A DNA stretch of 64,000 nt from Chloroflexota bacterium (GTDB taxonomy: Bacteria; Chloroflexota; Anaerolineae; Anaerolineales; Villigracilaceae). Below are positions 15,549-28,755 of the stretch, one piece after another. The first letter of the stretch is position 1; each line of letters starts with the position of its first letter. Below the pieces are notes generated by a model. It ran no database searches. It was given only the letters and a program-made list of their open reading frames with translations, and was not told the origin of the DNA. The stretch covers positions 1 through 64,000 of the forward strand of contig VGNE01000005.1 in NCBI GenBank assembly GCA_016866215.1, read 5' to 3'. The translations under genes and the position numbers were made by a program.

Positions 15549-16468
15549 GACTCGGCTACTATCCTGGCTGCTCACTCGAGGGCATCAGCGCAGAATACGA
15601 CGAATCCATCCGTGCGTTATTTGCTCATCTCGAAATCACCATGGAAGACCTGCCCGATTGGATCTGTTGCGGCACGCTGGCCGCGCCGTCGCTTTCCCGT
15701 CTGTTGGGATTGGCAACACCTCTTTGGAACGTTGCTCAGGCCGAAAAAGCGGGATACGAAAAAGTGATTGCTCCATGCAGCGCCTGTCTCTATCATTTTA
15801 AACATGCCACCAATGTTGTAATGGAAAACCCGCCTCTGCGCGCGGAAGTGGAGGCGGTTCTCGAACTCCCGTTGAATTCACCGCCGCCGACAATTCATCC
15901 GCTCGAGCTGTTGAGCGATGATGGCTTCGAGGCACTCATACGCGGATCAGTGAAGCGCGACCTATCTGACCTCAAAGCGGTCTGCTATTACGGGTGCCAT
16001 ATTTCGCGTCCCGCCAAGCTGATGCAGTTCGATGACCCCGAAAATCCACAAAGCATGGATCGCTTGCTCAATTGGGTTGGCATTCAAACTTTGGACTGGC
16101 CGCGCAAAGTGGATTGCTGCGGCGCGCACTTCAGCATGATCAAACCCGATTATGTTGTTGACATGTGCCAGCACTTATTCGAGTCTGCGCTTGAGGCAGG
16201 AGCCGAAGCGATCATCGTTGGTTGCCCGATGTGCCATGCCAATCTTGATACTCGCCAGGAAGCAATTGCCGCGAAATTAGGACACGCACTCAATATGCCT
16301 GTCCTTTATTTTTCTCAAGTTCTTGGTTATGCCTTCGGCTTGCCTGACAAAGAACTCGGATTCAAACGTCACATCGTTGACCCGTTGCCGCTTCTCAAGT
16401 GTCTAAAGTCTCCACTTCCCACTTTAGTCACTTCAGGCACTTCACACTTTCCCCACTCCACACTTTAG
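15545..16468 (+). CDS. hdrB: HdrB-like subunit with two CCG domains
   Basis: A 307-residue HdrB-like protein. In the methanogen enzyme this subunit holds two non-cubane [4Fe-4S] clusters that reduce the disulfide. Both CCG motifs are complete: C9, C41-C42, C78, C81 and C147/C151, C191-C192, C227, C230. The substrate here is unknown. The last 23 or so residues (from KCLKSPLPTLVTS to the stop) are not part of the family; they are encoded by CACTTTAG-type repeats (16399-16475) that have extended the C-terminus. The gene overlaps hdrC by ATGA and is followed by hdrA after 16 bases. Confidence 0.9.
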   Translation: MRLGYYPGCSLEGISAEYDESIRALFAHLEITMEDLPDWICCGTLAAPSLSRLLGLATPLWNVAQAEKAGYEKVIAPCSACLYHFKHATNVVMENPPLRAEVEAVLELPLNSPPPTIHPLELLSDDGFEALIRGSVKRDLSDLKAVCYYGCHISRPAKLMQFDDPENPQSMDRLLNWVGIQTLDWPRKVDCCGAHFSMIKPDYVVDMCQHLFESALEAGAEAIIVGCPMCHANLDTRQEAIAAKLGHALNMPVLYFSQVLGYAFGLPDKELGFKRHIVDPLPLLKCLKSPLPTLVTSGTSHFPHSTL

Positions 16469-16475
16469 TCACTTT
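16399..16475 (+). repeat. CACTTTAG repeat array A
   Basis: Tandem, imperfect units of CACTTTAGTCACTT, with shorter variants such as CTCCACTTCCC, cover the end of hdrB and the gap to hdrA. Related arrays occur at 19972-20106, 21103-21200, 21625-21740 and 24631-24711, and none was seen outside the hdr-mvh cluster. Confidence 0.75.
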
Positions 16476-16484
16476 TTCAACCCT

Positions 16485-19400
16485 ATGAACAATTCCTTCC
16501 CTTCTCCTCTTGGAAAAAGCAACAAACCCGTTGGCGCAGTCATGGTCGTTGGCGGCGGGATCGCTGGAATGCAAGCCAGCCTCGATCTGGCCGATTCGGG
16601 TTTCAAGGTTTATCTGGTGGAAAAGCAACCAGCCATCGGCGGACACATGGCTGCGTTGGATAAAACTTTCCCAACGAATGATTGTGCCATGTGCACGATC
16701 AGTCCGCGCTTGGTGGCAACGGCAGGGCATCGTAACATTTCGGTGCTGACCGATACGGAGTTGTTGAAACTTGATGGCGAGGCGGGACATTTCAGCGCGA
16801 CTGTGCGACATAAGCCGCGTTACATTGACGTGAGCAAATGCACCGCTTGCGGCGATTGCGCCTCCGTCTGCCCGATCACCGTCACAGATAACTTCAACGG
16901 CGATTTGACGCAAAGCGTGCGCAAGGCTACTTATAAACTTTATCCACAGGCCGTGCCGAATGCGTTTGCCATCGAGAAAAAGGGAATCGCACCATGCCGT
17001 GACGCCTGTCCTGCGGGTCAGCGCGCGCAGGGTTATATCGCCATGATCCGCGAAGGTCGTTATGCTGAAGCCTTGCGCGTCATTAAGGAAGACAATCCTT
17101 TTCCGGGAATTTGCGGGCGGATCTGCAATCATAGGTGTGAGACGGCTTGCAATCGAAACCTTGTTGATGAGCCAATCTCTATCGCTGCCCTCAAACGATT
17201 TGTCACTGATAAAGTTTATGCTGAAGCATATGTCGCGCCGCAGCCAGCCTCACGTAAATTCGATGAACGGGTGGCAGTGATTGGGTCAGGTCCATGCGGA
17301 TTGACGGCTGCCAAAGATTTGGTTGTGGCCGGTTATGGCGTCACCATCTTCGAAGCGTTGCCTGTCGCAGGCGGGATGTTGCGAGTCGGCATCCCTGAAT
17401 ATCGCCTGCCCACATGGATCATCAATCGCGAAATTCAGGAAATCCTTGACCTGGGCGTCGAGTTGAGGTTGAACACTCCTGTCAATAATCTGGATGATGT
17501 TTTCGCACAAGGTTTTAGCTCGGTGTTGATCGCGGTGGGTGCGCACGAGGGGAAGAAGTTGCCAATCCCAGGCGCGGATCATCCCGATGTGTTGGTCAAT
17601 ACGATTTTCCTGCGTGATGTGCGGATGGGCAATGGTCCCAATTTGCAAGACCGACATGTGCTTGTACTCGGCGGGGGAAATGTCGCCATGGACTGCGCGC
17701 GCACAGCCCTGCGTCTCGGTGCGAAACAAGTGGATATGGCCTTCCTTGAATCACGCGAGAAGATGCCCGCGCGTGAAGATGAGATTGCCGAAGCGGCCGA
17801 AGAAGGCATCGCGTTTTATCCCAGCCGATCTTTCACACGAATTCTTTCGGATAATGGACAGATCAGCGGCGTGGAAGCGGTGAATGTCTCCTTTATGCAG
17901 TTTGAAGCGGACGGTTCGTTGACGCTCGAAACTGTGCCCAGCAGCGAACATACACTCGACTGTGACATGGTTATCTTTGCCATTGGTCAGCGCGCGGGAT
18001 TGGCTTTCATCCCTGAAGATGGCAGCGTGGGAATCACCCGTCAGAGAACGGTCGCCGTCAACCCCAACACGTTCGCCACAAGTCGTGCGGGAGTGTTTGC
18101 TGCGGGTGACGCGACTACAGGTACAGCCGTCGTCATTGATGTGGTCGCCGCAGGACATAAGTCCGCAGATAACATCCATAAGTATTTGCGGGGCGAGAAT
18201 CTGGAATTACGCAGCCACGCTGATTTGCCAGTGATAAAGATGAACCCAACCGAGGTCGCAGAGCAGATCCGCAGCGGGGAAATCAGAGTCCAGCCTCGGG
18301 TCAGGATGGAAGCGTTAAATCCCGATTCGCGCACGCACTCCTTTGAGGAGGTCAATCGCGGGTACACGGAAGAAGAAGCGCGCGCCGAAGCATCGCGTTG
18401 TTTGCAATGCGGTGTCTGTTCAGAATGTCTTGCCTGTTATTACAAATGCGGCGCGGGCGCGATTGACCATAATCAGACCGCGCGCACCGAACAGATTGAA
18501 GTCGGCGCTGTGATCCTTGCTGCGGGCTTTGAACTTTACGATGCGCATCTCTCTGGCGAATATGGTTTTGGGCGTTATCCCAACGTGGTCACCAGCCAGC
18601 AATACGAACGTATTCTTTCACCGAGCGGGCCGTACAGCGGACACCTCAAACGTCCATCCGATGAGCAGGAGCCAAAACGCATCGCGTGGATTCAATGTGT
18701 GGGTTCACGCAGCGCCGACCGCAACTGGTGCTCGGCGGTGTGCTGCATGTACGCCACCAAGCAAACCATCATCACGCAGGAGCACGCGCCTGGCACGGAT
18801 TGCACGGTTTTCTACATTGACTTTCGCGCATACGGCAAAGGCTTCGATGCGTATTTTGAACGTGCAAAAACTTCGGGTGTGCGCTATGTTCGCGCTATGC
18901 CTTCAATTATTAGACAGGATGCGGCGACGGAGAATCTCGAAATCCAATATGCACTTCCCGATGGCAGCCTCCTCACGGAGACCTTTGACATGGTCGTGCT
19001 TTCTGTCGGTTTGCAGGCCCCGAAAGGAATGGGTCATCTTGCCGAAGAATTGAAAGTAGATTTGACTGCAGATGGATTCTGCAAAACGACCAATCTCTCG
19101 CCGCTCAACACCAGCCGCGAAGGAGTTTACGTCTGCGGGCCGTTTGCCGAACCGAAAGATATTCCCGAAACAGTGATGTCGGCCAGCGCGGCTGCGGTGC
19201 GTGCGATGACGCTTCTCGCCGAGGGACGTCACACGCTCGTCGCGCCGAAAGTTTATCCGCCAGAAATTGACGTGGCGGGGCAGGAGCCGCGCGTGGGTGT
19301 CTTCGTTTGTCACTGTGGTACGAATATCGCAGGTGTGATTGACGTGGCCTCTGTCACGGAGTATGCGCGCAGTCTGCCTAATGTTGTTGTAGCCGATCAC

Positions 19401-21101
19401 AACCTGTTCACCTGTTCAACAGATTCACAAGCCAAGATCAAAGCAGCGATTAAGGAATACAACCTCAACCGCGTGGTGGTCGCATCTTGCACGCCGCGCA
19501 CGCATGAGCCATTGTTCCAAAATGCAATTCGTGAAGCAGGATTGAATTTCTATTTGTTTGAACTGGCGAACATCCGCGACCAGTGTTCATGGGTGCATCG
19601 CGACCAACCCGAGGCCGCAACGCGAAAAGCCAAGGACCTTGTCCGCATGGCGGTGACGAAGGTGCGGATGGACGAACCGTTGCAACGCAAGTCACTCGAA
19701 TTCAATCACGACGCGCTGGTTATCGGCGGCGGCGTGGCAGGGATGACTGCCGCGAACGAACTCGCGGATCAAGGTTTCAAAGTTTCCATTGTCGAGCGCG
19801 AAGGCGAACTGGGCGGCAACATGCGGCATTTGCATTTCCTGCTCAGTCACGTCGAGCCGCAGACTTTACTCAAGAAAATGGTTGAGAGGACGATCAATCA
19901 TCCAAACATTCACACATTCCTCAATGCTGAGATTGCCTCGTTTGCAGGAAGTTTGGGTAAGTTCACAACGACAGTTCGAAGTGCGGAGTTCGAAGTGCCT
20001 AAAGTGCAAAGTGGGGATGATCCCAACTCCGCACTTCGAACTTTAGACACTTCCCACTTCCCACTTCCAACTTTAGACACTTCCCACTTTAGACACTTCA
20101 CCCTTCACCACGGCGTGGTCATCGTCGCGACGGGCGCACAGGCTTATCAACCAACCGAATATCTTTATGGACAGGACAAGCGCGTCCTCACGCAACTTGA
20201 ATTGGAAGAGTTGCTTTCAAATCGCCAACCCTTCGACTTCGCTCAGGGCGAGTCGGAAATCAAAAACCTAAGATCCATCGTGATGATCCAATGCGTAGGG
20301 TCGCGCACCGCCGAACGCCCGTATTGCAGTCGTCTGTGTTGCGGACAAGCGGTCAAGAATGCAATGGAGATCAAGAAGATCAGTCCGCAGACCGAGGTTT
20401 ATATCCTGTATCGCGACATGCGGACTTATGGCTTGATGGAGCCTTACTATCGTCAAGCACGTGCGGACGGTGTAACTTTCCTGCGCTTCGATGCGGAACG
20501 CTCGCCAGAAGTCCACGCGGGAGATGCGCTGCAAGTTATTGTCCACGATGAGATGCTTGATGCGGATGTGGCGCTGGAAGCGGATCGAATCGTCTTGTCG
20601 GTGGCAGTTGTCCCGAGGGATGATGCGGGTGAAGTCGCCCAATTGCTGAAAGTGCCGCGCACAGCGGACGGTTTCTTCCAGGAGGCGCATCTCAAATTGC
20701 GTCCCGTTGATTTTGCTTCGGATGGAATCTTCCTGTGCGGGATGGCGCATTACCCCAAGAAGGCGCTGACCGAAACTGTGACACAAGCCCTCGCGGCAGC
20801 GGGACGCGCCCCAACGGTGCTTTCAAATCACACTATCGAGATCGAGCCGATCATTTCCCACGTCAATGAAGATAAATGCGACGGCTGCGCGTATTGCGTG
20901 GATCCGTGTCCGTTCAAAGCCATCACGTTGGTCGAATATCAAAACGAAGCAGGTCAGACCAAGAAACGTGTTGTGGTTGACGAGACGGTTTGTAAAGGTT
21001 GTGGTACTTGCCAGGCAACCTGCCCGAAAAACGCGATCTTCGTTTGGCATTTCAAACTGGATACCCTGCGCGCTATGACTATGGCTGCGCTTGGGAAGTG
21101 A
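16485..21101 (+). CDS. hdrA: Fused HdrA-NADPH oxidoreductase-HdrA flavoprotein
   Basis: A 1538-residue fusion. Module 1 is HdrA-like: FAD fold VVGGGIAGM at about 21-29 and [4Fe-4S] Cys 119, 122, 125, 129. It is interrupted by a complete GltD/NfnB-like module: Cys-rich CRDACPAGQ (171) and CGRICNHRCETACNR (210), FAD fold VIGSGPCG (266), NAD(P) fold VLGGGNVAMD (395), and AAGDATTGT (540). HdrA module 1 then resumes with CLQCGVCSECLACYYKCG (about 639). From about 935 a second, complete HdrA follows: CHCGTN, FAD fold VIGGGVAGM (1080) and two C-terminal ferredoxin motifs (about 1465 and 1503). HdrA is the bifurcating flavoprotein of Mvh-Hdr complexes; here NAD(P)H exchange is likely built in. Repeat-derived insertions lie at about residues 1164-1207 and 1248-1256. 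Confidence 0.9.
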   Translation: MNNSFPSPLGKSNKPVGAVMVVGGGIAGMQASLDLADSGFKVYLVEKQPAIGGHMAALDKTFPTNDCAMCTISPRLVATAGHRNISVLTDTELLKLDGEAGHFSATVRHKPRYIDVSKCTACGDCASVCPITVTDNFNGDLTQSVRKATYKLYPQAVPNAFAIEKKGIAPCRDACPAGQRAQGYIAMIREGRYAEALRVIKEDNPFPGICGRICNHRCETACNRNLVDEPISIAALKRFVTDKVYAEAYVAPQPASRKFDERVAVIGSGPCGLTAAKDLVVAGYGVTIFEALPVAGGMLRVGIPEYRLPTWIINREIQEILDLGVELRLNTPVNNLDDVFAQGFSSVLIAVGAHEGKKLPIPGADHPDVLVNTIFLRDVRMGNGPNLQDRHVLVLGGGNVAMDCARTALRLGAKQVDMAFLESREKMPAREDEIAEAAEEGIAFYPSRSFTRILSDNGQISGVEAVNVSFMQFEADGSLTLETVPSSEHTLDCDMVIFAIGQRAGLAFIPEDGSVGITRQRTVAVNPNTFATSRAGVFAAGDATTGTAVVIDVVAAGHKSADNIHKYLRGENLELRSHADLPVIKMNPTEVAEQIRSGEIRVQPRVRMEALNPDSRTHSFEEVNRGYTEEEARAEASRCLQCGVCSECLACYYKCGAGAIDHNQTARTEQIEVGAVILAAGFELYDAHLSGEYGFGRYPNVVTSQQYERILSPSGPYSGHLKRPSDEQEPKRIAWIQCVGSRSADRNWCSAVCCMYATKQTIITQEHAPGTDCTVFYIDFRAYGKGFDAYFERAKTSGVRYVRAMPSIIRQDAATENLEIQYALPDGSLLTETFDMVVLSVGLQAPKGMGHLAEELKVDLTADGFCKTTNLSPLNTSREGVYVCGPFAEPKDIPETVMSASAAAVRAMTLLAEGRHTLVAPKVYPPEIDVAGQEPRVGVFVCHCGTNIAGVIDVASVTEYARSLPNVVVADHNLFTCSTDSQAKIKAAIKEYNLNRVVVASCTPRTHEPLFQNAIREAGLNFYLFELANIRDQCSWVHRDQPEAATRKAKDLVRMAVTKVRMDEPLQRKSLEFNHDALVIGGGVAGMTAANELADQGFKVSIVEREGELGGNMRHLHFLLSHVEPQTLLKKMVERTINHPNIHTFLNAEIASFAGSLGKFTTTVRSAEFEVPKVQSGDDPNSALRTLDTSHFPLPTLDTSHFRHFTLHHGVVIVATGAQAYQPTEYLYGQDKRVLTQLELEELLSNRQPFDFAQGESEIKNLRSIVMIQCVGSRTAERPYCSRLCCGQAVKNAMEIKKISPQTEVYILYRDMRTYGLMEPYYRQARADGVTFLRFDAERSPEVHAGDALQVIVHDEMLDADVALEADRIVLSVAVVPRDDAGEVAQLLKVPRTADGFFQEAHLKLRPVDFASDGIFLCGMAHYPKKALTETVTQALAAAGRAPTVLSNHTIEIEPIISHVNEDKCDGCAYCVDPCPFKAITLVEYQNEAGQTKKRVVVDETVCKGCGTCQATCPKNAIFVWHFKLDTLRAMTMAALGK
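19972..20106 (+). repeat. CACTTTAG repeat array B inserted in hdrA
   Basis: Inside hdrA, AGTTCGAAGTGCGGAGTT (19973-19990) is the reverse complement of AACTCCGCACTTCGAACT (20027-20044), and the unit GACACTTCCCACTT recurs behind it. The array forms a large hairpin. It is read in frame as about 43 Ser/Thr/Leu-rich residues (TLDTSHFPLPTLDTSHFRHF) and leaves the gene open. Confidence 0.75.
20228..20250 (+). repeat. Short intragenic repeat (TTCGACTTCGCTCAGG type) in hdrA
   Basis: CCCTTCGACTTCGCTCAGGG is read in frame as PFDFAQG in the second HdrA module. The same element in the opposite orientation occurs twice in hypF (26951-27012), and a variant occurs in the allH gene (36852-36874). Confidence 0.65.
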
Positions 21102-21102
21102 C

Positions 21103-21200
21103 AAGTGCCTAGAGTGAGAAAAAACCTAGAGTGAGAAAGTGCCTAAAGTGAGAAAGTGCCTAAAGTGAAAAAGTGTGAAGTGGCTAAAGTAAAAAGTGGC
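21103..21200 (+). repeat. CACTTTAG repeat array C (inverted orientation)
   Basis: Units of AAAGTGCCTAAAGTGAGA repeat four to five times just after the hdrA stop. The orientation is opposite to arrays A and D, so arrays C and D face each other around the four-helix-bundle gene. Confidence 0.8.
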
Positions 21201-21206
21201 GAGGTG

Positions 21207-21569
21207 TTAAGTTTTGGCGCTGCGATGAATAGACGTGAAAAGTGCGAGGAGTTGGCTGCATTCGTCCATGTCGGCTTTGAAGGATTCGGCGGAAAGCCAG
21301 CCCACTTCGGTGATGACCTCCAGCCAATATTGAGTTTCGCTGGACTCTTTTTCGCAGATGGAGATGATGTGTTTGAAATCCGCTTTGCTCACCGCGCGAT
21401 TTGCCTCCCGATAATTCGCGCCAACAGAAGTGCCAGACCTGACCATTTGCCGCGCAATCGAATCCGCCTCTCGGCTATGTGGCAGGCGCGAAGCCAATTG
21501 GATCATCCTCACAGCAAATGCCTTCGTCCGTTTTTCCAACTGCTGACCGAATTCCTTATTTGTTGCCAT
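21207..21569 (-). CDS. Four-helix-bundle protein (S23/IVP family)
   Basis: A 120-residue protein of the four-helix-bundle family first known from intervening sequences in 23S rRNA genes (S23/IVP, related in fold to Avd of diversity-generating retroelements). The family pattern is clear: FGQQLEKRTKAFAVRMIQLA, then SIARQMVRSGTSVGANYREA, SKADFKHIISICEKESSETQ, YWLEVI and ECSQLLALFTSIHRS. It has a strong ribosome-binding site (AAGGAGG, seven bases before the ATG). It is on the strand opposite to the operon it interrupts, between hdrA and mvhD, and inverted arrays of CACTTTAG repeats flank it. Family members bind nucleic acid or partner proteins, and no enzymatic activity is established. The position suggests it arrived as an insertion together with the repeats. 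Confidence 0.85.
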   Translation of the reverse strand: MATNKEFGQQLEKRTKAFAVRMIQLASRLPHSREADSIARQMVRSGTSVGANYREANRAVSKADFKHIISICEKESSETQYWLEVITEVGWLSAESFKADMDECSQLLALFTSIHRSAKT

Positions 21570-21624
21570 GACTTCCTCCTTGAATTGAGTGATTTGATTT
21601 TCCAGCCACTTCGATTTTACTCGT

Positions 21625-21740
21625 GTCAGACACTTTAGTCACTTTGCACTTTAGCCACTTCCAAAGGAAATAGGCAAAATGAATCCCACACCTTCAACTT
21701 CCCCCACTTTAGCCACTTTAGCCACTTCACACTTCGAACC
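21625..21740 (+). repeat. CACTTTAG repeat array D, reaching into mvhD
   Basis: GACACTTTAGTCACTTTGCA and CCCACTTTAGCCACTTTAGC units flank and overlap the mvhD start. The array supplies the first 20 or so codons of mvhD and possibly displaced its original ribosome-binding site. Confidence 0.75.
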
Positions 21741-22131
21741 CGTGATCATCGTCTACACCTGTTACTGGTGTTCTTACACCGCTGCGGATTTGGCAGGAAC
21801 ATCACGCTTGCAATATCCACCGAATATTCGAATCATTCGTGTCCAGTGCAGCGGGATGGTGCATCCCAACCTTGTAATTGACGCGCTGACAAACGGTGCG
21901 GACGGCGTGTTGATGTGCGGGTGCCATGAGGGGGACTGCCACTACCTCGAAGGCAACCTGCGTGCCAAGTCCCGCGCGGATGCGATCAAGATGATGCTGG
22001 AGGATTTTGCCCTCGAGCCTGAACGCTATCGGCTTGAATGGGTGGCGGCTTCCGAAGGTCCGCGTTTTGCAGAGGTGATGACGGAAATGGTGGAGCAGGT
22101 CAAAAGAGTCGGGCCGAGTCCGTACAAGTAG
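21679..22131 (+). CDS. mvhD: MvhD-like [2Fe-2S] electron-transfer subunit
   Basis: A 150-residue protein of the MvhD/FlpD hydrogenase-delta family, which links the hydrogenase or another dehydrogenase to HdrA. The cysteines expected for a [2Fe-2S] centre are present: YTCYWCSYTAADLAG (about 27-30), VQCSGMV (about 56) and CGCHEGDCHY (about 79-86). The N-terminal 20 residues (NPTPSTSPTLATLATSHF) come from CACTTTAG repeats rather than from the family. The start at 21679 has AAAGGA about 10 bases upstream. An in-frame start inside the conserved region is not available, so the extension is probably translated. Confidence 0.9.
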   Translation: MNPTPSTSPTLATLATSHFEPVIIVYTCYWCSYTAADLAGTSRLQYPPNIRIIRVQCSGMVHPNLVIDALTNGADGVLMCGCHEGDCHYLEGNLRAKSRADAIKMMLEDFALEPERYRLEWVAASEGPRFAEVMTEMVEQVKRVGPSPYK

Positions 22132-23187: not shown

Positions 23188-24630
23188 ATGGGCAAAACAC
23201 TTGTCATCCAACCTGTCAGTCGAATCGAAGGCCACGCCAAGATCACCATCCAATTGGATGATGCCGGCGACGTGGCTGATGCCCGCGTCAATGTTATTGA
23301 ATTGCGCGGCTTCGAGAAATTCTGCGTCGGCAAGCCTGTTGAGGAAATGCCGCGCATCACCACACGCATCTGCGGCGTCTGTCCCTGGTCGCATCACCTG
23401 GCTTCAGCCAAAGCAAATGACGCTGTGTTCGGTGTCGAACCAGCCCCGGCGGGGGTAAAGCTGCGCCGACTCTGCAACAGCATCGCCTACATGGAGGAGC
23501 ACATCCTTCACTTCTACATCCTCGGCGGTCCGGACTTCGTCATGGGGCCAAGCTCTGATTATGCGGCACGCAACGTGATCGGGATCGTCGGCGCTGTGCC
23601 TGATGTTGCCAAGCAGGTCGTCAAAGTACGGCACATGTGCGCGAAAATGCTTGAGACCATCGCTGGGAAATCCATCCATCCAGACGCAGCTGTCCCCGGC
23701 GGATTCAGCAAACCGCTTCAAAAGGAGGAGCGCGATGCGCTTCTTCCAATGGCGCAGGAATGCCTGGAACTTGCCAAATTCAGCATTAAGTTCGCTAAGG
23801 ATAATATCTTCCCCAAATATCTCGATGCCGTGAAAACCATCGGTACAATGACTTCTGGTTTTTTGGGGACGGTTGCTGCCGATGGAGCGCTCGATCTGTA
23901 TGACGGCAAACTGCGTATGATGTATTCCGACGGTTCGTATGAGGATTTCGCCACCAATGATTACGCCGATTACATCGGCGAACACGTCGAAGACTGGACC
24001 TATCTGAAGTTTCCGTATGCCAAGAAGCGCGGACCCTTCCTGCTCGAAGACAACGCGCCGAGTCTCTATCGCGTCAACACGCTGGCGCGCATCAACGTGG
24101 CAGATTACATCCCAACCCCGTTGGCGCAAAAAGAACTGGAAGAATTCCGCGCCAACTTCGGTCGCCCCGCGCAACTGACACTTCTCTATCACTGGGCGCG
24201 CTTGATCGAATTGCTCTACAACGCGGAAACGGCTGTCCAGTTGCTGAACGATCCTGAGATCACCAGCCGCGCGACGCGCGTCAAAGTGACGCCGCGCGCC
24301 GCGCGTGGTGTGGGTGTGGTCGAAGCCCCGCGCGGGACTCTCATCCACGATTACACTACCGACGACAATGGCATATTGACTCACGTCAACCTGATCGTGG
24401 CTACCTGCCAGAACAACTCAGCCATCAACCTCTCGGTCAGGCAGGCTGCGAAGACCTTGATCAAAAGCGGCAATTATGACCAGGGCACGCTCAACACGGT
24501 CGAGATGGCGATCCGCGCCTACGATCCGTGTTTATCGTGTGCCACACACAAACTCGATGGATCAATTCCAGTCAAACTGGATATCGTTGGACCTGACGGT
24601 AAACTGCTTGACACGCTAACGAATCAATAA
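23188..24630 (+). CDS. mvhA: [NiFe] hydrogenase large subunit, group 3c-like (MvhA)
   Basis: A 480-residue catalytic subunit that oxidises or produces H2. Both Ni-Fe ligand motifs are intact: RICGVC with C62 and C65, and DPCLSCATH with C448 and C451. The 26 residues after His454 are the C-terminal extension normally removed by the maturation protease, which is encoded downstream. All four ligands are cysteine, so it is not a selenoenzyme. Pairing with MvhD/HdrABC genes points to group 3c, which couples H2 to HdrA. GAGG precedes the ATG. Confidence 0.93.
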
Positions 24631-24711
24631 GTGGCCAAAGTGTGGAGTGACTAAAGTGCGAAAAAGGGATGCGATCATTTTAGTCACTTTAGTCACTTCC
24701 CACTTCCCATC
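24631..24711 (+). repeat. CACTTTAG repeat array E (inverted pair)
   Basis: GTGGAGTGACTAAAGTG (24644-24660) is followed by TTTAGTCACTTTAGTCACTT (24679-24698) in the opposite orientation. The gap between mvhA and the protease gene can therefore fold into a hairpin. It is the last array in the cluster. Confidence 0.75.
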
Positions 24712-25218
24712 ATGGATACACTTCCCTCCTTCTGCCGTGCGCGTGTGCTCATCCTCGGCGTGGGCAACGTCCTCTTTGGCAACGACGGTTTCGGGCCGCA
24801 AGTGATTGACTATCTCACTCGTCACTATGTCATCCCGGAGGATATTTATGCCATAGATGTCGGCACTGGCGCGCGCAAAGTATTATTCACCGTTACGCTC
24901 AGTCAAACTCGTCCGCAGGAACTTGTCATCGCGGACGCGGTGGATTGGGGACAGGAAATCGGAAGCGTTCTTGAAATTCCTGTCGAGTTATTGCCAGTTA
25001 CCAAAGTGGATGATTTTTCGCTGCATCAAGTCCCGACCTCCAATATGCTGCGCGAGTTGCAGGACGACTGCGGCGTAAAGGTCAGCGTGGTCGTCTGCGA
25101 CGTAGGCGAAATCCCACAGGTGATCGAACCAGGCCTCTCGTCCGCGATTGAAGCGGCTGTTGTCACTGCCGGGGAAAAGATGGCATCTCGTTACGAACTA
25201 CGGCTGCTCCTGCCATAG
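24712..25218 (+). CDS. Hydrogenase maturation endopeptidase (HyaD/FrcD family)
   Basis: A 168-residue protease that should remove the C-terminal tail of MvhA after nickel insertion. The N-terminal motif GVGNVLFGNDGFG carries the metal-probing acidic residue, with NDG in place of the more common DDG, as in several group 3 proteases. A second acidic site is present in IYAIDVGTG, and a His in FSLHQVP fits the third. It follows the large subunit after repeat array E, so array E may have displaced its original upstream region; no clear ribosome-binding site remains beyond the repeat. Confidence 0.9.
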   Translation: MDTLPSFCRARVLILGVGNVLFGNDGFGPQVIDYLTRHYVIPEDIYAIDVGTGARKVLFTVTLSQTRPQELVIADAVDWGQEIGSVLEIPVELLPVTKVDDFSLHQVPTSNMLRELQDDCGVKVSVVVCDVGEIPQVIEPGLSSAIEAAVVTAGEKMASRYELRLLLP

Positions 25219-26380: not shown

Positions 26381-28755
26381 CATCTGGCGCGCGTATTCAC
26401 ATCACCGGCATCGTTCAAGGCGTCGGCTTTCGACCCTTTGTTTACAACCTTGCCACGCGCCTCGACCTCAAAGGCTGGGTGAAAAATACCTCCGCCGGTG
26501 TTGAAATAGAAGTGGATGGGGATAAAGTCGCTTTGGATTCTTTCGTCCGACGTTTACGGGACGAAGCCCCGGTGCTTTCCCGCATTGATGAATTCTCCGC
26601 TTCCTTCCGCCCTGCAAACGGATTCTGTTCATTTGATATTCGCCACTCTGAATCCATCCCCTCCGCCTTCCAGCCTATCTCGCCAGATGTCGCCATCTGT
26701 GAAGATTGTTTGCGCGAACTCTTTGATCCATCCGATAGACGTTATCGCTATCCGTTCATCAACTGCACCAACTGCGGACCACGCTTCACGATCATCCAGG
26801 ATATTCCTTATGACCGCCCAAAAACGACCATGTCTTCCTTTGCTTTATGCCCCGATTGCGAACGCGAATACACTGACCCTTCAAATAGAAGATTTCACGC
26901 CCAGCCTGTTGCGTGTTCCGTCTGTGGCCCACAAGTTTGGCTCGAATTACGCAACCCTGCCCTGAGCGAAGTCGAAGGGACGCAACCCTGCCCTGAGCGA
27001 AATCGAAGGGACGCAACAGGTGAGGATGCCATTCTCGAAACACAACATCTTCTCGCTGAAGGGAAAATCCTCGCCATCAAAGGTTTGGGCGGATTTCATT
27101 TAGCCTGTGACGCAACCAATTCAGCTGCTGTATCCGAATTGCGCAATCGTAAACTCCGCGTGGACAAACCCTTTGCATTAATGATGCCCGATCTCGAAAC
27201 AATAGAAAAACATTGTTTCATCAGTGATGCCGAACGCGAGTTGTTGCAATCAACTGCCCGCCCGATCGTTTTGTTGCGCCGCAAACCCGAATCAAACATC
27301 GCCAAAGAAGTTGCGCCGAATCAGGATTGGATCGGCGTTATGCTCCCCTACACTCCTCTGCACTACCTACTGTTTGCTGACATCGTCCGCGTAGGGGATA
27401 GCTATTCACTGTTCACTGCCCTTGTCATGACCAGTGGAAACCTAAGCGAAGAACCCATTGCAATTGATAACGAAGATGCTCGCGAGCGGCTTTCAAAATT
27501 AGCCGACGCATTCTTGATGCACAACCGTGATATTCATGTGAGATGCGACGACTCAGTGGCGCGAGCATTTACGGATTACGAATTAAGCGACACGCAACAT
27601 GCAATACGAAACACGTATCCCATCCGTCGTTCTCGTGGTTATTCTCCATTCCCCGTCAAACTTCCCTGGGATGTTCCGCCTCTTCTTGCGGCTGGCTCTG
27701 AATTAAAAAACACATTTTGTATCACGAATAAGAACTACGCTTTTCTCAGTCATCACATTGGTGATATGGAAAATTATGAAACTTTGAAATCTTTCGAGCA
27801 AGGCGTGGAATATTTCGAGAAATTATTCCGTGTGAAGCCTGAGGCGCTTGCGTGTGACATGCACCCGAATTATTTAGCGACACGATATGCGCTGGAGCGG
27901 GCTGAACGCGAAAACATTCCAACCTTCAGTGTTCAACATCATCATGCGCATATCGCTGCTTGCATGGCTGAGCATGGGCTGGATGGTTCACATCCTGTGA
28001 TTGGTATTGCATTTGACGGCACAGGTTATGGCGACGACGGTACGATTTGGGGTGGGGAAATTTTAATTGCAGATTACAAGTCGTATCAACGCGCCGCACA
28101 TTTGGAATACTTCCCTTTGCCTGGCGGGGACGCAGCCATCAAGAGACCTGCCCGCACTGCGCTGGCTTTGCTTTGGTCACTGGGACTGGATTGGGATGAA
28201 CGGCTTGCCCCTGTGGCGGAGTTCTGCGCTGAAGATCAAGTCACATTACGCGCGCAGTTGGAAAAGAAGATCAACGCGCTGATGACTTCGTCAATGGGGA
28301 GGTTGTTCGATGCGGCGGCGGCGTTGGCGGGCGTTCGGCAAATGGTCAACTACGAGGGGCAGGCGGCGATTGAGTTCGAGGCGTTGGCGGATCCGACTGA
28401 GGCTGGGAAATATTCCCTGTCGCTGAATCAGACTCAAGGTGGAGTCAGAAGCGGAATCCGGTCGCTTGTAAAAGATGTGCTGACAGGTGTCCCCACCCCA
28501 ATAATTTCGGCGCGTTTCCATAATGGCTTAGCTGAGGCAGCGCGCGTAGCCGCACTTGAGATTAAGCGAAAAACAGGAATTAGCAAAATGATTTTATCGG
28601 GCGGGGTCTGGCAGAACATTACCTTGCTTAGACGTACTTTGTCACTTTTACGGAATGAAGGTTTTGTTGTGTACATCCATCGTGAAGTGCCGACCAATGA
28701 TGGCGGCCTGTCGCTTGGGCAGGCGGTCATCGCAGCAATGAGAATGAGAGGTTGA
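26377..28755 (+). CDS. hypF: Carbamoyltransferase HypF
   Basis: A 792-residue HypF that makes the cyanide ligands of the Ni-Fe site from carbamoyl phosphate and transfers the thiocarbamate to HypE. Domains in order: acylphosphatase (VQGVGFRPFVYNLA), two zinc fingers (CEDCLRELFDP, CTNCGPRFT, CPDCEREYTDP, CSVCGP), a YrdC-like domain, and a Kae1-like domain with HHHAHIAACMAEHG. Between the second zinc finger and the YrdC domain, residues about 192-212 are encoded by two tandem 31-base repeats (26951-27012). The first copy reads NPALSEVEG; the second is read in another frame. The gene stays open. The neighbouring carbamoyl-phosphate-forming system at 33-37 kb is independent. Confidence 0.95.
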   Translation: MTSGARIHITGIVQGVGFRPFVYNLATRLDLKGWVKNTSAGVEIEVDGDKVALDSFVRRLRDEAPVLSRIDEFSASFRPANGFCSFDIRHSESIPSAFQPISPDVAICEDCLRELFDPSDRRYRYPFINCTNCGPRFTIIQDIPYDRPKTTMSSFALCPDCEREYTDPSNRRFHAQPVACSVCGPQVWLELRNPALSEVEGTQPCPERNRRDATGEDAILETQHLLAEGKILAIKGLGGFHLACDATNSAAVSELRNRKLRVDKPFALMMPDLETIEKHCFISDAERELLQSTARPIVLLRRKPESNIAKEVAPNQDWIGVMLPYTPLHYLLFADIVRVGDSYSLFTALVMTSGNLSEEPIAIDNEDARERLSKLADAFLMHNRDIHVRCDDSVARAFTDYELSDTQHAIRNTYPIRRSRGYSPFPVKLPWDVPPLLAAGSELKNTFCITNKNYAFLSHHIGDMENYETLKSFEQGVEYFEKLFRVKPEALACDMHPNYLATRYALERAERENIPTFSVQHHHAHIAACMAEHGLDGSHPVIGIAFDGTGYGDDGTIWGGEILIADYKSYQRAAHLEYFPLPGGDAAIKRPARTALALLWSLGLDWDERLAPVAEFCAEDQVTLRAQLEKKINALMTSSMGRLFDAAAALAGVRQMVNYEGQAAIEFEALADPTEAGKYSLSLNQTQGGVRSGIRSLVKDVLTGVPTPIISARFHNGLAEAARVAALEIKRKTGISKMILSGGVWQNITLLRRTLSLLRNEGFVVYIHREVPTNDGGLSLGQAVIAAMRMRG
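26951..27012 (+). repeat. Tandem 31-bp repeat inside hypF
   Basis: Two 31-base units beginning GCAACCCTGCCCTGAGCGAA differ at one base. Each holds the element CCCTGAGCGAAGTCGAAGGG. Because 31 is not a multiple of three, the two copies are read in different frames. Confidence 0.75.

Follow-up and report, generated by a model that had tools for sequence, protein, structure and literature searches.

An IVP/S23 gene between inverted short-repeat arrays is a probable member of a widespread class of small mobile elements

The window analyzed here is a stretch of 64,000 nucleotides from a Chloroflexota bacterium (contig VGNE01000005.1 of assembly GCA_016866215.1). An open reading frame of 120 amino acids is located on its minus strand at 21207-21569. 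In profile searches the predicted protein matched TIGR02436 with 88.3 bits (cut-off 24) and PF05635 with 70.6 bits (cut-off 33.8) and belongs to the S23/IVP family of four-helix-bundle proteins. The gene is preceded by a fused, hdrA-like gene (16485-21101, plus strand) and followed by mvhD (FlpD; 21679-22131, plus strand), the product of which matched PF02662 with 175 bits. The left arm, array C (21096-21198), contains nine inward-reading AAGTG-type units and no CACTT. The right arm, array D (21607-21734), consists of two blocks (21607-21660 and 21705-21734) with nine CACTT-type units and no AAGTG, and is inverted relative to array C. A search for inverted pairs revealed that 20 nt of the left arm (21171-21190) are perfectly complementary to 21715-21734; a second pair of 22 nt (21177-21198 and 21640-21661) matches at 91%. 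The locus therefore has the layout given in a preliminary description of this DNA, a minus-strand IVP gene between inverted arrays in an operon, and the arms extend slightly beyond the coordinates given there. The first unit of the left arm, from 21096, includes the hdrA stop codon. The outer portion of array D falls within the mvhD reading frame and overlaps approximately its first 20 codons. Like the 23S rRNA intervening sequences, the unit has an S23p reading frame between inverted ends, but it sits between hdrA and mvhD and not within a 23S rRNA gene.

Arms were scored by comparing the upstream flank of a gene with the reverse complement of its own downstream flank, or with that of other copies. 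The window unit had an own-arm inverted score of 40. The genome has 18 other IVP and GxxExxY copies, and in 36 scored comparisons with their arms this value was never equalled; the match between the two arms of the window unit is thus beyond chance. A clean empty site between hdrA and mvhD was not obtained, the nearest MvhD homologues being 54% identical. Of seven hdr-mvhD junction spacers tested against shuffles, five contained a clear inverted unit and two (L050, L053) did not.

One repeat family occupies 8.3 kb of the window, with three gene-less relatives beside the gene-bearing unit. Unit A (16397-16474), at the junction preceding hdrA, is lopsided and has one AAGTG followed by seven CACTT. 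Unit B (19979-20098) has four AAGTG followed by seven CACTT and lies in frame within hdrA. Unit E (24629-24723), at the 3' end of the gene at 23188-24630, has three AAGTG followed by four CACTT. These units were defined by repeat count and folding, and unit B also by comparison with homologues. In the region of unit B the window HdrA has 44 residues, compared with 10-11 in its two closest homologues, resulting in a net insert of 33-34 aa. Dating unit B from solved HdrA structures was dropped, because other sequence occupies that place, and closer homologues were used instead. A different, CCTTCGACTTCGCTCAGGG-like repeat is found at 20229-20260 (in hdrA) and at 26949-27017, with a 31-nt tandem at 26949.

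The predicted RNA of the window units folded better than shuffled sequences, with z of -5.7 (B), -4.3 (E) and -5.6 (A). The same was true for all six units that were chosen for folding (z -3.4 to -6.3). Such values would also be obtained if the IVP protein were a passenger or a local regulator, the arrays were RNA structures selected for operon decoupling or autoregulation, and ordinary recombination and plasmid transfer moved them. That no catalytic domain was recognized in IVP fits this explanation as well. The position of unit B inside the coding gene hdrA speaks against it, and together with the evidence on homology limits, empty sites and spacer bases given below we consider it unlikely.

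Genome-wide, exact CACTTTAGNCACTT was found 11 times, and all 11 matches are located at C5:16420-24698. When up to one mismatch was allowed, 20 of 24 matches fell at C5:16397-24698. The reversed pattern, used as control, also gave 21 matches in the genome. Thus, the count of CACTTTAGNCACTT carries little information by itself, and it is the clustering that matters. Local hopping might explain why AAGTG is clustered in one operon, as might import of an already decorated operon. In another part of the same genome (L286, 17221-17320) we observed an inverted unit without a gene; its GTACACAGGTAAACAGG-type repeat is also that of the IVP copy L012 elsewhere.

The profile search detected 13 TIGR02436 matches in the window genome. 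Both flanks of these IVP copies contain short repeats, inverted relative to each other, and the repeat differs for nearly every copy; L006 and L007 have one repeat in common. The AAAGTG repeat had been expected at all IVP copies, which was wrong, as IVP lineages differ in repeat. The genome further encodes six full-length GxxExxY genes (TIGR04256), one with an internal stop, that follow the same inverted-repeat plan; a seventh, short match was left out. For the 13 IVP and six GxxExxY copies the mean own-pair score was 35 versus 17 for cross pairs, and none of 20000 permutations was as high. In this first scoring L009 (IVP) and L017 (GxxExxY) failed to stand out. When the flanks were extended slightly, each of the 13 IVP copies in the window genome scored at least 26.

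IVP genes were present in 24 of 25 genomes (window genome counted), with 142 matches altogether. We analyzed 101 of these loci: 13 own, 28 given out and 60 fetched. Own inverted pairs exceeded the 95th percentile of cross pairs at 88 of the 101 loci and the 99th percentile at 61, compared with 21 and 15 in the direct orientation control. Thirteen loci stayed at or below the 95th-percentile threshold. As a further control, ordinary genes from 200 kb of the window genome were scored in the same way with near-identical flank lengths. Here, only 6 of 174 exceeded the IVP 95th-percentile score and none scored above 31. The score was exceeded by one of 57 small genes and by 3 of 48 ordinary genes within the window, hdrA being among the latter. 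The preliminary description had named IVP genes of the clade without repeats as the outcome that would speak against it, and this outcome did not appear: 88 of 101 loci pass. Its expectation that IVP flanks would carry the same repeats in inverted arrangement held for the inverted arms at these 88 loci and failed for the identity of the repeat, which differs between IVP lineages.

The arms were strongly periodic in 142 of 202 cases, compared with 6 after shuffling. The best lag was 7 or 14 for 127 of the 202 IVP arms and 8 or 15 for another 50. For GxxExxY, own pairs exceeded the 95th percentile at 25 of 35 loci (direct orientation 7 of 35); 19 of 70 arms were strongly periodic (none of 70 when shuffled), and the best lag was 8, 9 or 10 for 49 of the 70 arms and 7 for two. 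Hence the repeat period tracks the protein family, 7-8 for IVP and 8-10 for GxxExxY. Both in the window genome (L014-L019) and among the fetched loci L156-L184, GxxExxY (PDDEXK_3) genes are mostly located between inverted arrays of 8-10-nt repeats. At IVP loci, the matched arm mostly begins at the stop codon of the upstream co-directional reading frame (77 of 83 within 40 nt, median -2, with mechanical ORF calls).

Short tandem repeats slip, and unit numbers vary between near-identical copies (L295 versus L302), so that the arrays could be passive products of replication slippage unrelated to the gene. This is extremely improbable. The two arms of a locus match each other and not those of other copies, while control genes are without arms (1 of 57 small genes). 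Neighbouring units vary in the spacer with the core fixed, and the core of an IVP copy predicts dispersed arrays (see below).

Arms were compared between loci in pairs of IVP genes without homologous neighbours. Over 4906 such pairs, arm similarity rose with protein identity (Mantel r 0.24, 0 of 2000 permutations). At 70% protein identity or above, the arms were in common in 11 of 17 of these pairs, compared with at most 0.3% per bin among IVP pairs below 50% identity. The main DNA match of the 17 pairs was confined to gene and arms, reaching no more than about 130 nt beyond the profile match on either side, in loci that extend 500 to 1500 nt. L006 and L007 form a pair inside one genome, with homology confined to gene and arms. 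Some of the 17 pairs had extra small matches between arrays, in L034/L036 one to an array about 930 nt downstream. Among eight further, hand-picked pairs, the matches of L226/L248 and L209/L214 also stopped near gene and arms. Homologous flanks were found for L205/L217, L186/L187, L204/L233, L208/L216 and L208/L227, and L195/L202 gave a partial match. For GxxExxY, 582 of 595 pairs were without common context; arm similarity again followed protein identity (r 0.52, 0 of 2000 permutations), and all four pairs with at least 70% identity had arms in common. Thus, IVP genes that are related but have unrelated neighbours often retain a common repeat, and their homology stops at the arms, which demonstrates, at the level of sequence, that arms and gene are one evolving unit that moves as a whole. 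This agrees with the small element with inverted ends that the preliminary description had seen in the locus: 88 of 101 loci have such ends, and gene and arms travel together. A passenger or regulator gene moved by ordinary recombination does not readily account for homology that is limited to gene and arms at non-homologous places, even within one genome (L006/L007).

Filled and empty sites were compared at two places. Within the genus, seven genomes (G000, G001, G015, G011, G014, G010 and G002) carry an IVP unit in the pheS-pheT operon, and so does G004, at a contig edge. The spacer is 8 and 9 bp long in G003 and G008, and 81-91 bp without IVP in G005, G006 and G007. The units of G000, G001, G015 and G011 have a TTAGG-type repeat in common, those of G014 and G010 a TAGA-type repeat. 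Between the two groups the proteins are 54-55% identical where compared, and those of the TAGA group are 74-76% identical to L031, which is located elsewhere. Because the TAGA group is closer to L031 than to the TTAGG group, the pheS-pheT junction was probably hit more than once. Five long IVP-free pheS-pheT spacers were tested for an inverted unit against 60 shuffles, and the signal was clear in L149 (0/60) and marginal in L145 (2/60). In the other three it was weak (L139 and L140; 4/60 and 8/60) or not seen (L153; 31/60).

The second place is a conjugative plasmid of the MPF_T type. Plasmid C of Trichormus variabilis ATCC 29413 and a Scytonema plasmid carry an IVP unit between two of its genes. 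This unit is exactly absent from five plasmids found in other Nostocales, two of which are identical in this region. The spacer measures 441 bp when filled and 13 bp when empty, corresponding to an insert of 428 bp. Within the nearest 400 nt, 397-399 positions are identical on the left and 389-393 on the right, with 97% identity overall. GTAA flanks the insert on both sides and may represent a 4-bp duplication. A Nostoc plasmid (C052, 90.6% identical) has a shortened, older remnant of the unit at the same site. The flank tree is consistent with either an ancestral empty state or exact excision. The exact presence and absence of 428 bp, together with the possible duplication, is a further argument against a passenger or regulator carried along by recombination and plasmid transfer. 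Two other candidates for presence and absence, Calothrix PCC 7716 versus NIES-4105 (about 90% identity) and nrdB-nrdA (about 85% identity), were not counted due to blurred boundaries.

Further observations were made on plasmids. The near-identical copies L295 and L302 differ in the number of left-arm heptamers, which indicates recent slippage. On other Nostoc plasmids, unannotated stretches (H24-H26) match part of the arms only. A search with the IVP protein L044 identified relatives in 29 plasmid records, of which 10 are typed as conjugative; at the same sensitivity, 50,697 phage records yielded no relative. On a Nostoc plasmid (L296, 2360-2880), an IVP unit with GGGAGTA-type heptamers lies antisense between nrdB and nrdA, in the same geometry as the window copy. 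Two IVP genes on cyanobacterial plasmids (L308, 2477-2836; L309, 2471-2827) lie within CRISPR-cas operons, between cas6 and cas4 and between cas10/cmr2 and cmr3, and may therefore be misread as CRISPR-associated.

The analysis was extended across phyla with a single protein, L044, as query. The best 80 of at least 500 named loci were kept, and 77 of these were usable; owing to this selection the set represents one IVP clade. Inverted short-repeat arms were visible by eye at most of the 77 loci kept from the best 80 of at least 500. In this same selection the mean own score was 36 and the mean cross score 24, and 19 of 77 own pairs exceeded the cross 95th percentile (direct orientation 12 of 77). 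The cross scores are high because the heptamer TCAGCNN recurs. Strong periodicity was detected in 127 of 154 arms of these best-scoring loci, compared with one when shuffled. On a tree of 76 proteins, 41 of them labelled TCAGC, the label changed 17 times versus 25.5 times after shuffling (0 of 500 as low). TCAGC copies occur in at least 11 phyla named in the record titles, and phylum labels require 37 changes on the same tree, in which 6 of 73 forks are well supported.

We also counted arrays in 30 named genomes. TCAGCNNTCAGCNNTCAGC, a triple TCAGCNN heptamer, was present in 27 of them (overlapping matches counted). Many of the matches lie in inverted units without a gene. The highest numbers were 580 in Stenomitos frigidus and 565 in a Phycisphaerae MAG, with 9 and 1 matches for the reversed controls there; the reversed control did not exceed 9 in any of the 30 genomes. 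The same genomes have between 1 and 16 IVP matches each. One unlabelled genome was left out when array counts were compared with the core of the fetched IVP copy. In 19 genomes in which this copy has TCAGC arms the median array count was 66. In 10 genomes with another core the median was 1, yet two of them had 85 and 102 (p = 0.0006). Similarly, where the IVP copy has TTAGC arms (three genomes), TTAGCNN was counted 196, 86 and 17 times; in the other 26 the median was 0, yet 72, 28 and 14 were reached in three (p = 0.002). Many TCAGC arrays were present in G039 and G053 though their fetched copy is not labelled TCAGC, and TTAGC arrays in G049, G051 and G054 though theirs is not labelled TTAGC. 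The reversed TTAGC control was not clean, with 46 matches in G030 and 34 in G040. These matches perhaps belong to another heptamer family.

In G040 all 59 TCAGCNNTCAGCNNTCAGC matches were read by hand, and the two-strand clusters within 200 bp were ordered TCAGC and then complement in 10 of 10 cases. Twenty gene-less units were fetched, picked for having both arms. In a typical unit of this kind, a loop separates about four heptamers from another four or so in inverted orientation. The loops of these 20 units did not resemble each other above the shuffled level (mean score 12.0 versus 12.1 shuffled). Spacer bases in the two arms of the same unit agreed at 0.44, compared with 0.41 across units (1379 of 5000 permutations as high), and at 25 IVP loci with TCAGC arms own and cross values were 0.45 and 0.46. 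Spacer bases thus match no better within than between units, so that cores are kept and perfect stems are not. The conservation of cores next to unrelated loops suggests a binding or functional constraint, which is in favour of regulatory arrays. The unmatched spacer bases are not, since perfect stems would not have been maintained. The gene-less units that have the core of the resident IVP, together with units A, B and E of the window, support the proposal in the preliminary description that the remaining arrays are non-autonomous offspring, as REPs are to RAYTs.

The units have the REPIN-type trait of inverted doublets that fold as hairpins and are dispersed in many copies. In accessible sections of PMC3116915, REPINs are likewise extragenic hairpin doublets with many copies, and gene-less forms are related to a gene-bearing form. 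Based on this likeness, a Y1/HUH transposase (RAYT-like) could mobilize the units in trans, with IVP and GxxExxY as cargo. The carried proteins do not have a Y1/HUH domain in the scans made; Pfam scans of the proteins tried gave PF05635/PF22296 or PF13366 only. The ends differ from REPINs as well: instead of single palindromes they are tandem arrays, with units of 7-9 nt in which the core is fixed and the spacer varies. The core also differs between elements. Moreover, core and period of the arms track the carried gene family and clade, which an enzyme acting in trans would not explain. We therefore regard mobilization by such a transposase as improbable.

Another candidate activity is reverse transcription. 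IVP would in this case be an Avd-like partner of a reverse transcriptase, and the transcript of the unit would be copied and inserted by target-primed reverse transcription. The L044 protein matched bAvd (PF22296) with 24 bits, below the cut-off of 40, and homology of IVP and Avd is discussed in the accessible part of PMC10053308; both point to a related fold in the Avd of diversity-generating retroelements. Five weak IVP matches adjoin RVT_1 matches in G004, G014 and G022. These matches (21-29 bits; G014:C63, G004:C34/C59/C249 and G022:C153) are probably Avd genes of diversity-generating retroelements. In contrast, no reverse transcriptase adjoins the window unit, and the sole RVT_1 match of the window genome is on C53, whereas the unit is on C5. 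Fourteen of the 25 genomes (71-99% complete) gave no RVT_1 match; each of these has IVP genes, for example 10 in G015, 10 in G011 and 16 in G017. Because these genomes without RVT_1, some of them incomplete, all carry IVP genes, a role as reverse transcriptase partner is very improbable.

The nearest known kind of element are the 23S rRNA intervening sequences, and the elements described here look like their general, non-rRNA form. Both have an S23p family reading frame in an insert with inverted ends, and the lengths are similar (428 nt in Coxiella, 428 bp for the Trichormus plasmid insert). According to the accessible sections of PMC4990558, the Coxiella sequence has three tandem heptamers upstream of the S23p reading frame, mobility of such sequences has long been suspected, and the Coxiella S23p is probably not made in vivo. 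The present units differ in being located in protein operons outside rRNA genes and in having repeat arrays as both arms, with a core that goes with the IVP clade. Furthermore, gene-less units are abundant in some genomes, and GxxExxY is a second gene family on the same plan. MITEs and insertion sequences also have inverted ends, and a short target duplication is possible in one case here. Different from these, the carried proteins have no recognized transposase, and the gene-less copies have arm cores in common but not internal sequence.

Several heptameric repeats are known, among them the cyanobacterial STRR. Others are GGGAATC in Xanthomonas and GGGGA(C/T)T in Nostoc (PMC4692102, accessible sections). 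As far as described there, the Xanthomonas heptamers have variable positions and mostly four units per array, and convergent pairs number 70 in Xcc and 75 in Xac; our gene-less units share this layout. The same sections place 90% of the comparable arrays between the same genes in two Xanthomonas species, which indicates little current movement. This low turnover is in favour of selected, regulatory arrays. They further state that there is generally no association with mobile elements and that inverted pairs are few in Nostoc. For TAACTGA arrays in Beggiatoaceae, a repeat-binding protein was suggested as a possible mobile element (PMC4679880, accessible sections). The accessible sections of these two reports differ from our findings in giving no link to IVP and not containing the term S23. 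A connection between IVP genes and genome-wide inverted repeat arrays was not found in the open-licence PMC literature, among the matches listed.

In summary, the existence of the element and its mobility on an evolutionary time scale are well supported, and the comparisons support the mobile-unit reading of the locus, which is broader than first proposed. The element would consist of a short gene, from IVP/S23 or, in a sister version, from GxxExxY/PDDEXK_3, that is flanked by two inverted arrays. Each array would commonly have about 3 to 5 inward-facing units of conserved core and variable spacer bases, TCAGC+NN being the commonest lineage seen. We infer that the protein, as a pentameric ring, may bind the arrays of core and spacer in single-stranded form, at times when transcription or replication lets the arms fold out. 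Binding would mark both the unit and its copies without a gene, and some host or element activity would then join them into new sites. Positions at gene junctions would mainly result from selection against insertion in genes, and unit numbers would drift through slippage. Binding by the own protein could keep the core uniform inside an element and allow divergence between elements. The window copy likely belongs to a class of small mobile elements, each a short gene between inverted short-repeat arrays, that operates in this way.

The TRAP ring wraps spaced triplets. By analogy, the combination of a five-fold ring with a heptamer of fixed pentamer and two free bases suggests a single strand wrapped round the ring. 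According to PMC4990558, the four-helix bundles of S23p are arranged as a pentameric torus, and the PDB entries 2gsc and 2rld contain five chains each. An IVP ring protein as reader of the repeats is plausible on these grounds of sequence and analogy. In its favour, protein family and clade predict period and core, and the spacers are free though pairing would favour a stem. Against the explanation as a whole, the loops of gene-less units are unlike those expected of copies of a recent master, the window arrays are clustered in one operon rather than dispersed, the Xanthomonas arrays show little current movement, and the Coxiella S23p is stated to be probably not produced in vivo. Since no catalytic domain was recognized in IVP in Pfam scans of the proteins tried, something else would have to cut and join. 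More tentatively, and with some doubt on our side, a non-catalytic ring family (IVP/S23, kin of the Avd of diversity-generating retroelements) may read its own element, each pentameric ring recognizing tandem, single-stranded 5-nt cores with 2-nt spacers at the two inverted ends. It would mark copies with and without a gene for mobilization and shift its core specificity in the course of evolution. The rRNA intervening sequences, the Xanthomonas, Nostoc and TAACTGA heptamers and the nuclease-like GxxExxY elements would then be one class.

The element class is widespread and has been little noticed; its members insert at gene junctions, occur in many bacterial phyla and have relatives that carry no gene. 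Its recognition gives a genomic role to two common families of 'hypothetical' proteins, the four helix bundle protein and the GxxExxY protein, and explains their presence inside unrelated operons such as hydrogenase, pheS-pheT, nrdB-nrdA and CRISPR-cas. It also joins three old puzzles, the rRNA intervening sequences, the dispersed heptamer arrays and the Avd-like rings. For IVP and GxxExxY genes, the operon neighbourhood is an unsafe guide to function.
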